35,457 nucleotides of DNA from Mangrovicoccus sp. HB161399 (GTDB lineage Bacteria > Pseudomonadota > Alphaproteobacteria > Rhodobacterales > Rhodobacteraceae), in the NCBI RefSeq assembly GCF_013184745.1, contig NZ_JAATVU010000060.1, positions 1 through 35,457 of the forward strand. Direction: 5' to 3'. Made by a program: the position numbers and the translations under genes. Below are positions 22,916 to 24,786 of the stretch, piece by piece. The notes below the pieces were generated by a model, which was given only the letters and a program-made list of their open reading frames with translations, was not told where the DNA came from and made no database searches. Positions within the stretch are counted from its first letter, which is position 1. Every line of letters starts with the position of its first letter.

Positions 22916-23028
22916 TTCACCTGCCGCGGCGTCGTTTCGGCCTAGAATGCAGGTGCGGCATTTTGTAAGCATGGTCCTGCAGGCGGGCTGAGGGGCCCGG
23001 CATGGTGAATTGCCTGTCGGATGCGTAA

Positions 23029-23430
23029 ATGAATATACTTATAGTCGAGGACGATCCGAATTTGAGGGCGCTCTGGGCGGATGCCTTCCGCCGCGAGCTT
23101 CACGAGGTGCGCGAGGCGGGCACGGCCCAGGCGGCGCGCAAGGCCCTGATCGCCGGCGGTTTCGACCTTGTCCTTCTCGACCTCTATCTCGGCTGCGTGC
23201 CGGGGCAGTCTGTCGCCTCGCTGGCCACCTATGCAAATCCCGGCTGCAAGATGGTGCTGGTGGCAGGTGCCGCGGGGCCTTCCCCGGTGCGGCTGATGGG
23301 ACTTTCGCCGGCCGTGGTCTCGGTGCTGCGCAAGCCGGTGGACATCGAGCACATCGTGGCTGTCTGCAACCATATCGGCCTGGCGCTGGTTCCCGGCGCG
23401 GTTGGAAGCGGCCCGACCGCCGCCCGGTGA
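23029..23430 (+). CDS. Single-domain response regulator (receiver protein)
   Basis: A 133-residue protein made only of a CheY-like receiver. The acidic pair Asp8-Asp9 in ILIVEDD, the phospho-acceptor Asp51 in LVLLDLY and the conserved Lys102 in VLRKPVD are present. The Thr/Ser that normally ends the fourth strand is missing: the sequence reads VLVAGAAG, so switching could be atypical. No output domain and no adjacent histidine kinase exist. The start ATG at 23029 is weakly served by a ribosome site. It lies 113 bp after uvrD on the same strand. Confidence 0.8.
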   Translation: MNILIVEDDPNLRALWADAFRRELHEVREAGTAQAARKALIAGGFDLVLLDLYLGCVPGQSVASLATYANPGCKMVLVAGAAGPSPVRLMGLSPAVVSVLRKPVDIEHIVAVCNHIGLALVPGAVGSGPTAAR

Positions 23431-23440
23431 CGCGGCCCGT

Positions 23441-23470
23441 CCGTGAGCTTCCGTGAGTCCGCGTGAGCGG
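23441..23470 (+). repeat. Three 10-bp tandem units containing CGTGAG
   Basis: CCGTGAGCTT, CCGTGAGTCC and GCGTGAGCGG follow one another with exact 10-bp periodicity, starting 10 bp after the receiver gene stop. One helical turn per unit would place the shared CGTGAG on one face of the DNA. Function unknown. Confidence 0.5.
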
Positions 23471-23508
23471 TCGGGGAAAGCTTTCCGGGTCGGAATTTCC
23501 GTGCGGGC

Positions 23509-23550
23509 AAAAAAAAGCGGCGACACCAGGGAGGAGGAGGGTGCCGCCGC
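23509..23550 (-). terminator. Intrinsic terminator of the cuckoo-type RNA
   Basis: A perfect 11-bp GC-rich stem (one G-U pair) with a 12-base loop is followed by eight T on the minus strand (23516-23509). This is the strongest intrinsic terminator in the window and fixes the RNA's strand and 3' end. Confidence 0.85.
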
Positions 23551-23648
23551 GAAAACAGAAAGCCCAGGGAGGAGGAGGGGCTTCCTGATCCGAATTCTGC
23601 CGGAAGCTCCGGCCGGTGCCGGGGGCGCTGGCCCGTGTCGCTTCCTGT
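23509..23648 (-). ncRNA. Cuckoo/CcsR-type small RNA with two anti-Shine-Dalgarno loops
   Basis: Read on the minus strand, two consecutive hairpins carry the identical 12-base loop CTCCTCCTCCCT. The first stem is GGAAGCCC/GGGCTTTC (arms 23585-23578 and 23565-23558, one G-U pair). The second is GCGGCGGCACC/GGTGTCGCCGC (23550-23540 and 23527-23517, one G-U pair), followed at once by eight T. Both loops contain CCTCCTCCC, the hallmark of the cuckoo (CcsR) RNAs of Rhodobacterales, stress-induced regulators in which the last hairpin is also the terminator. A possible promoter is TTGTGC (23682-23677), 16 bp, TAGATT (23660-23655), giving a start near 23648 and about 140 nt; the 5' end is a guess. Confidence 0.8.
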
Positions 23649-24013
23649 ATCTCTAATCTAGCGTTTTTCTGCACCTGCACAATAGGGAAGTTTTCAATTC
23701 TGCCATGCAGCAAGTGCAAGAGCGGGAAAATATCGTTTTATATTTGTATATTGATCGATGCACCGATTGAAATCATGGGGCTTTGATCGGGATTGTGAAT
23801 GCTGCAAGTGCAAAATGAATGCAGTGTGTACGACCAAGGTCGCGGATGGCCCTTCCGCTCTGGCGACCCTTCTGGCGGTCCGTGACGGGCATCCGCTGGG
23901 AATTCATGGAACCTACTTGGTCCGGCCCGGATTCCGGGGATTTCGATGGTTTCAGCCAGATTTTCCTGGCCCCGCGATGCTGCCTGACCCAAGAATCCCC
24001 TTGCATTCCCCTG

Positions 24014-24039: not shown

Positions 24040-24217
24040 ATCCTCCTTTGACGTAAATTCCTCTTGAGTTCCTTGAAGTACCATAGTATCCCTTTCCCTA
24101 ACGGAGACAGAACAAAATAAAGCAGGCTCATACAGGCAAGCATATCTCCGGTAAGAAGTCTTCGCGCGGGCGTGTCCCCCAGATTTGACCGCGCAGAAGG
24201 CCGACCAAGAGGCACAG

Positions 24218-24255
24218 GTGGCGGATCAGGCTGTGGCAGCGGCCCGGTCCGCCAC
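24218..24255 (+). promoter_or_regulatory. Inverted repeat in the mraZ leader
   Basis: GTGGCGGA (24218-24225) and TCCGCCAC (24248-24255) are exact complements separated by 22 bp, 33 bp before the mraZ start. The arms could form an RNA hairpin or a protein site. MraZ represses its own operon through upstream repeats containing GTGG-like cores, and GTGG occurs several times here, but the spacing does not match a known box. Confidence 0.3.
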
Positions 24256-24288
24256 TTTCATTGAGGTGGACCGCCAGGGGATTAGATC

Positions 24289-24786
24289 GTGCTCTGCACC
24301 TTCCGGGGCGAATTCGGGCAGAAGATAGACGCGAAGGGACGCGTCTCGATTCCCGCGCAGATCCGCAAGGTGCTCGATGCAGGCGACCCGGACCGCGAGT
24401 CCGGCGACGATCCCAACCTCATCATCGTCTTCGGCGACACCACCAGCAAGTGCATCTTCGGATACAGCCAGCAGGCCATGCAGGATGTCGAGGCCAAGAT
24501 CCACGCGATGAAGGCCGGTCCGCGCAAGAAGCTGCTCTCCAAGGTCTTCCTGACGCGCAGCTGGGAAACCCGCGTCGATTCCACCGGGCGCATCGTGCTG
24601 CCCAAGGCCCTGCGCGACCGGCTGGAGCTGGGCGAGAGCGGCGACCTGACCTTTGCCGGGACCGGCGAGCGGTTCGAGATATGGAACAGCGTGACCTACG
24701 AAGCCGAAAACGACATCGAGCTTGACGACATCGAGGGCTTCGAAGAGGGCATGGACATGGCCGAACTTCTCGACATGGACCTCTGA
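24289..24786 (+). CDS. mraZ: MraZ, transcriptional regulator of the dcw cluster
   Basis: A 165-residue DNA-binding protein of the MraZ/AbrB-like fold, with two copies of the family motif: [13 protein letters not shown] near residues 13-25 and [13 protein letters not shown] near 96-108. MraZ normally represses its own dcw promoter and can assemble on the nucleoid. The GTG at 24289 is the only possible start because an in-frame TAG lies two codons upstream; AGGGGA precedes it. The acidic tail ending in [11 protein letters not shown] is longer than in E. coli MraZ, as is usual in alphaproteobacteria. rsmH starts 2 bp after its stop. Confidence 0.93.

Follow-up and report, generated by a model that had tools for sequence, protein, structure and literature searches.

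Within the window, as we call the whole 35,457-nucleotide stretch of Mangrovicoccus sp. HB161399 DNA analysed here, a gene for a receiver-only protein converges on a short minus-strand element from which mraZ diverges on the other side (Table 1). The element contains two adjacent hairpins with the same loop, CTCCTCCTCCCT, exact in both. In hairpin 1 the loop stands between the arms CAGGAAGCCC (23587-23578) and GGGCTTTCTG (23565-23556), and in hairpin 2 between GCGGCGGCACC (23550-23540) and GGTGTCGCCGC (23527-23517), directly followed by eight T residues. Searching the window for this loop with at most one mismatch returned just two matches, the two element loops themselves, with a mean of 0.29 in shuffled sequence and two matches in 2 of 100 shuffles. 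The RNA fold of 23505-23600 reaches -41 kcal/mol compared with -25.3 +/- 3.0 kcal/mol for 200 dinucleotide shuffles (z -5.16), none of which (0/200) folded as stably. The exact loops and this fold bear out a preliminary description of the locus, which had noticed two minus-strand hairpins sharing a 12-base loop, the second followed by T8. Three GTGAG direct repeats with an exact 10-nt spacing lie between the receiver gene and the terminator (23443-23467); they are also present in three genus relatives, the third repeat reading GTGAT in M. algicola, which is without the receiver gene.

Table 1. Features of the element, its promoter region and its neighbours (window coordinates)
Feature	Position	Strand	Basis or remark
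Receiver-only protein, convergent neighbour	23029..23430	+	PF00072 E 1.3e-11; absent here in M. algicola
T8 tail, intrinsic terminator	23509..23516	-	A8 on plus strand
RF02791 CcsR1 match	23512..23591	-	56.9 bits, E 4e-13, cut-off 65.3
Predicted cuckoo/CcsR-type sRNA transcript, ~139 nt	23509..23647	-	fold; start predicted from -10-like box
Hairpin 2, loop CTCCTCCTCCCT at 23539-23528	23517..23550	-	sequence, fold, covariation
Hairpin 1, loop CTCCTCCTCCCT at 23577-23566	23556..23587	-	sequence, fold, covariation
5' leader hairpin GGAAGC...GCTTCC	23602..23645	-	sequence comparison in genus
Putative -10-like box TAGATT, 16 nt after TTGTGC	23655..23660	-	sequence
Proximal box TTGTGCAGGTGCAG, over -35-like TTGTGC	23669..23682	-	45/51 relatives' mraZ-linked loci, 4/4 genus loci
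Distal box CTGCCATGCAG (CTGCATGGCAG on minus, 23710-23700)	23700..23710	.	exact fit to PhaR site CTGCNNNGCAG
Second proximal-like box TTTTGCACTTGCAGCA, 1 mismatch	23800..23815	-	similar sequence in three genus relatives
mraZ, divergent neighbour	24289..24786	+	PF02381; synteny

The element has the marks of the cuckoo kind of RNA, namely a pair of neighbouring hairpins that both present a CCUCCUCCC loop and, at the end, an intrinsic terminator formed by T8 behind hairpin 2. At the gathering threshold, Rfam gave no match (0) over the window. Running the covariance model, as the preliminary description had suggested, gave a divided answer: RF02791 (CcsR1) recognises the element with high significance, but the score stays under the curators' cut-off, and for this reason we do not class it as RF02791 in the strict sense; it is a variant of the cuckoo kind. 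Matches above that cut-off occur in 6/120 family genomes. RF02344 (ar14), with three anti-Shine-Dalgarno (anti-SD) hairpins and a cut-off of 58.8 bits, matches the two hairpins of the window element at 46.3 bits (E 4e-07). The assignment as a cuckoo/CcsR-type anti-SD small RNA (sRNA), already made in the preliminary description, is supported by the Rfam score and the fold together with the covariation and synteny described below, and the element is very probably a true small-RNA gene, the two loops of which mimic the mRNA-binding tail of the ribosome.

The related genomes, to which the preliminary description had also pointed, keep the element at this locus. It adjoins mraZ in 4/4 genus genomes, including M. 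algicola even though that genome is without the receiver gene, and stems and loops are nearly letter-identical in all four while the flanks diverge. The outer six pairs of the 5' leader hairpin are intact in 4/4 genus sequences; of four more inner pairs, three changed on both sides and two are broken in one sequence. In the own genome (7.18 Mb, 323 contigs), counting RF02791-like places at E <= 0.01, we found 10 such RNAs, each solitary, one per contig on ten contigs and all scoring under the RF02791 cut-off; the other three genus genomes hold 9, 9 and 8 copies. The statement that there is one copy is therefore right for the window and wrong for the genome, and a single-copy orphan was rejected. 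In an alignment of 32 of the 36 genus copies, 9/17 consensus pairs show pair-keeping changes on both sides, and the most constant columns include those of the loops while the stems vary with compensation. One paralogue (L010, G000:C90:22922-22998) is without the second anti-SD loop (CTACACTTGCC) and retains stem and T run.

We surveyed 120 family genomes, the own genome included, with RF02791 at E <= 1e-4 and obtained matches in 95/120, with mraZ present in 119/120. Distances to mraZ were taken from the matches listed, which cover 65 of the 95 matching genomes including our own (for G119, the copy nearest mraZ). Among these listed matches, CcsR lies 0.7-6.7 kb upstream of mraZ in 52/65 genomes and is divergent from it in 52/52; the other 13/65 are not near mraZ, four being on the same contig at 44-971 kb and nine on another contig, where contig breaks may account for some. 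The upstream side of mraZ is thus the common place of CcsR in the family, and the notion of an odd location was dropped; the earlier picture of an orphan single copy in an unusual place is contradicted on both counts by the ten copies and by the 52/65 genomes among the matches listed. Inspection of 11 of the 13 loci away from mraZ (all except G150 and G071) revealed nine readable arrays and a solitary copy in G117; no loop pair was seen in the locus of G104. The mraZ leader itself (window 24040-24290) is strongly conserved in the genus and has no Rfam match over the cut-off; its position is presumably like that of the R. sphaeroides UpsM sRNA, and we take CcsR1-4 and UpsM to be neighbours in R. 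sphaeroides from their RSs numbers. The available passages of the UpsM paper hold nothing on CcsR.

A DUF1127 gene beside the CcsR RNAs is a frequent association (PMC10253847; papers given by PMC number are cited here for individual passages). Using a profile search, we found a DUF1127 gene in 40/51 relatives' mraZ-linked loci and no match in the other 11/51, in the window or in the three other genus loci; the profile was built from four frames, of which two were on the wrong strand, and of two Pfam checks run on its matches one was above and one below the Pfam cut-off, the L175 match being weak. In 39 loci the domain begins 153-259 nt ahead of the first loop; that of L197 stops ~50 nt short of the RF02791 match. 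Two minus-strand frames in the interval from the element to mraZ were scanned and matched no Pfam family, and the four DUF1127 matches of the own genome all lie on contigs other than that of the window, so that a hidden DUF1127 frame was rejected and the earlier remark that none is visible upstream stands. The window therefore has no DUF1127 gene beside its RNA, the usual mark of a CIN1 locus; it does have what we found to characterise CIN1 of Rhodobacteraceae, a position upstream of and divergent from mraZ together with a shared promoter block. The locus reads as an mraZ-linked CIN1 locus without DUF1127 and with one RNA as opposed to an array. Since the other state is commoner in relatives, we infer that both the DUF1127 gene and the array were lost here. 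The state of the window is not unique, as other family members also have solitary DUF1127-less loci (L159 and L168 are examples). In L162 (G010:C6:19000-25460), four DUF1127 matches are found among cuckoo loops between a receiver gene and mraZ; this receiver gene is 45% identical to that of the window, and L162 may represent an earlier state of the window locus.

The shared promoter block consists of two boxes, which in the window are separated by 28 nt; the distal box is exact in 3/4 genus loci and degenerate in M. algicola. Across the family the block is composed of a distal CTGCATRGCAG followed 28-29 nt on by TTGTGCANNYGCAG over the -35. We counted the proximal box in 49 of the 51 loci, leaving out L163 and L197, in which the loop pattern was unmatched and which both carry the box. 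It is present ahead of 36/39 loci with DUF1127 and 7/10 without, and these 49 loci, 305,233 bases in all, hold 43 matches, every one of them at such a promoter. In a set of 49 promoters that includes those of the genus, the best distal match to CTGCN3GCAG has no mismatch in 33/49 and one in 13/49, compared with 10 and 32, respectively, of 2000 random control positions, and the distance between the boxes is 28 or 29 nt in 42/49. The 10 DUF1127-less loci other than those of the genus have the proximal box in seven cases, the distal box in seven and both in six. Where DUF1127 is present, the proximal box precedes the first loop by 302-408 nt (~330 nt); this distance is ~105 nt in the window, and among the seven other box-bearing loci without DUF1127 it is 83-149 nt in six and 222 nt in L156. 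Both boxes are also found in 9/9 readable arrays away from mraZ, the distal one being one base off in L249, L251 and L262. Retention of both boxes by these arrays ties the block to the operon, not to mraZ, and we rejected the idea that its conservation is a by-product of mraZ. The window thus carries the shared CIN1 promoter of the family, the same two-box block as at the DUF1127-CcsR loci of relatives, and not an independent promoter as the preliminary description had thought possible. A further stretch similar to the proximal box, AATGCAGGTGCGGCATTTTG at 22946-22965, precedes the receiver gene and is also found in M. ximenensis.

Conservation of this kind bears on two readings that would deny the element a function of its own. 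One is that two stable hairpins simply end convergent transcription and that the loops have little weight. Hairpin 2 with its T8 is indeed a good intrinsic terminator on which the receiver gene converges, but a terminator does not account for loops that are among the most conserved columns while the stems vary with compensation, for the conserved promoter ahead, for retention in M. algicola without the receiver gene or for nine paralogues at other places, and we consider this reading extremely improbable. The other, which we hold to be very unlikely, takes the element for the remnant of a decaying CIN1 operon that is expressed at most as a by-product. It would fit the absence of DUF1127, the single RNA and the nine other copies that could substitute for it; against it, stems and loops are near-identical in 4/4 genus genomes despite diverging flanks, the proximal box is kept, and the other DUF1127-less family loci likewise retain their boxes in most cases, as counted above (7, 7 and 6 of 10).

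The distal box fits a known operator. The binding sequence of R. sphaeroides PhaR is CTGCNNNGCAG, and PHB draws PhaR off the DNA (PMC12542648, PMC8401924). The window has this sequence in the promoter of the element, and phaR is found once per genome in 4/4 genus genomes. CTGCNNNGCAG alone is not rare (four sites in the window, shuffle mean 1.72), and the weight of the distal box therefore lies in its position and conservation. The same sequence occurs before phaP and phaR at similar distances in 4/4 genus genomes (phaP start located in three), and less than 1200 nt upstream of the phaR domain in 19/30 family genomes with phaR, our own included; the phaR loci of these 30 genomes hold 42 sites in 34.9 kb upstream versus 2 in 45.0 kb downstream. 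No upstream CTGCNNNGCAG was seen at 11/30 family phaR loci, two of which have less than 1200 nt in view. In 14 phaR loci with at least two sites before a phasin-like gene, the spacing is 28 or 29 in 11 and 26 or 30 in three, so that doubled phasin sites mostly share the spacing of the two cuckoo boxes; all 10 phasin-like genes scanned match Phasin_2, five of them above its cut-off. Within the genus, a distance of 174-175 separates the two exact sites before phaP, and only a looser YGCRNYGCR match lies 29 nt away.

Some of the scattered copies carry such sites as well. An exact CTGCN3GCAG is found upstream of 11/31 genus cuckoo copies and of 8/27 scattered ones (31 of 32 rows, L141 left out), compared with a shuffle mean of 0.33 (largest 2) and 5/634 control segments; YGCRNYGCR is found upstream of 22/31, compared with a shuffle mean of 7.0 (largest 13) and 86/634. 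At the scattered copies the site appears to lie on the -35, as it does at the own phaP. The pattern TTGCYGCNNNGCRGC matches 65 places in the own genome (reversed control, 18); it lies within 80 nt upstream of 6/10 own cuckoo copies, and one match is ahead of the DUF1127 gene on contig C264. This last is a PhaR-like palindrome (L027 3739-3753, G000:C264:39738-39752) on a contig where no cuckoo RNA was found. Among the papers searched, we found none linking PhaR to cuckoo RNAs/CcsR or DUF1127 genes; in the available passages of PMC9230146 both PhaR and DUF1127 appear, unconnected.

The proximal box is found well beyond cuckoo loci. Its pattern ATTGTGCANNYGCAGMA occurs at no fewer than 127 places in 85/120 family genomes, the reversed pattern at one. 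Among the 127 matches listed, 52 are at listed CcsR loci, 21 are less than 8 kb from mraZ (no listed CcsR row matched them, and one, in G117, has its listed CcsR row elsewhere) and 54 are elsewhere. Of these 54 we inspected 18, hand-picked: one is situated between phaC and phaZ, two precede pyc genes, one precedes accA in the own genome and two precede DUF1127 genes (one of these has a cuckoo-like loop motif downstream); a patatin and a CoA-transferase gene each have one box ahead of them, another box separates a rhaD-like aldolase from a DeoR-type regulator, and the remaining nine are at mixed or unclear genes. The phaZ and rhaD-like places have PhaR-bound counterparts in S. meliloti, namely the phaZ promoter and the rhaD-rhaR region (PMC12542648). 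Judged from these gene neighbourhoods, the box seems to lean to carbon metabolism; the pyc of the window, unlike that of two relatives, has no upstream proximal box within 3 mismatches. The dyad in the box, TGC-N4-GCA, exceeds the PhaR site by one base, and the box-bearing stretches at phaC/phaZ, pyc and accA contain no CTGCN3GCAG; a second regulator may therefore bind there. In two genera the proximal box also lies directly ahead of TetR-family genes (L310, L311), with two tandem boxes in L310.

These data also weigh on a rather unlikely but more serious alternative, in which the RNA is the same cuckoo RNA and the boxes belong to another regulator or to an extended RpoH-type promoter, with a heat or oxidative input and no role for PHB. 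In R. sphaeroides, an RpoHI/RpoHII promoter has been described for the ccaF1-CcsR operon, in passages that do not mention PhaR (PMC10253847, PMC8307010), the proximal box covers the -35 with a half-site spacing unlike that of the PhaR site, and, among the matches listed, 54/127 boxes are away from CcsR and mraZ, about half of the 18 of them inspected being at genes without a clear PHB link. An RpoH-type promoter would leave unexplained, however, that the distal box matches the PhaR consensus exactly at the spacing of the doubled phasin sites, that scattered copies bear palindromes with varying centres and arms, and that some other proximal boxes are at phaC/phaZ, pyc, accA and rhaD-like genes. 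As to the different stress input that the preliminary description had thought possible, the boxes point to a PHB/PhaR-type signal, which may act on top of the RpoHI/RpoHII control reported for R. sphaeroides.

The best explanation, a CIN1-type sRNA that acts by anti-SD silencing and receives a PhaR-type input, is as a whole quite probable in our view; the PhaR part alone is slightly more probable than not. A sigma factor acting at TTGTGC-N16-TAGATT would drive transcription of an sRNA of ~140 nt with a 5' leader hairpin and two CCUCCUCCC hairpins, the second doubling as terminator. The two-box operator would control this sRNA, the distal box serving as a putative PhaR-type site. PHB granules would sequester PhaR, derepressing the sRNA, which in turn would lower translation of carbon-metabolism mRNAs. 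The exposed loops would pair in trans with AGGAGG-type ribosome-binding sites and block translation: NfeR1, which has the same loop motif, silences ntrB by covering its ribosome-binding site (PMC10746234), and the window RNA is expected by analogy to mask AGGAGG sites. With phaP leaders the loop pairs at -13.7 to -15.5 kcal/mol in three genus genomes; 2-8% of 128 background leaders reach such values, so that this pairing is only suggestive.

Cuckoo RNAs have been described as stress RNAs, their kind being marked by transcripts that are stress-induced, bind Hfq and are processed by RNase E, and we know of no reason given for their repeated anti-SD loops nor of further inputs to them. What is new here is the conserved PhaR-like two-box promoter of cuckoo/DUF1127 loci, with PhaR-like sites at some solitary copies. 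A family-wide operator that fits PhaR would give cuckoo RNAs a concrete metabolic input, stored PHB, and would link them to the PhaR-sRNA precedent of Sinorhizobium. We are evenly divided on the broader proposal that throughout Rhodobacteraceae the PhaR regulon includes both the DUF1127-CcsR operon and solitary cuckoo RNAs, that PHB titrates PhaR off the operator and so releases a bank of anti-SD RNAs that rebalances carbon-storage translation, and that in Mangrovicoccus the RNA-binding partner was lost from this locus while solitary copies under PhaR control multiplied. The locus points to strains in which the RNA would act without a neighbouring DUF1127 gene.

Among known systems, alpha-r8/MmgR of Sinorhizobium meliloti is a member of another RNA family but provides a precedent for a PhaR-repressed sRNA: PhaR represses MmgR, and its promoter site CAATTGTGCACCGCAGCATTA was bound in EMSA (PMC12542648, PMC8401924). 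This site resembles the window proximal box, with half-sites one base closer in MmgR. Alpha-r14/NfeR1 (RF02344) of the same species shares with the window CCUCCUCCC anti-SD loops in a separately transcribed sRNA, as predicted for the window element; it has three such hairpins under LsrB and NtrC control (PMC10746234), whereas the window has two behind a PhaR-like operator. With the PhaR (AniA) regulon the window has CTGCNNNGCAG in common, and its two boxes are spaced like doubled phasin sites. The nearest system is CcsR1-4/cuckoo at the CIN1 locus of Rhodobacter sphaeroides (RF02791), with the same tandem hairpins with CCUCCUCCC loops and terminator tail; the family copies are mostly upstream of and divergent from mraZ, and the window promoter block is that of the family's DUF1127 loci. 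The window differs from CcsR1-4 in having no DUF1127 gene, one RNA in place of an array, a score under the Rfam cut-off and nine solitary paralogues elsewhere in its genome.
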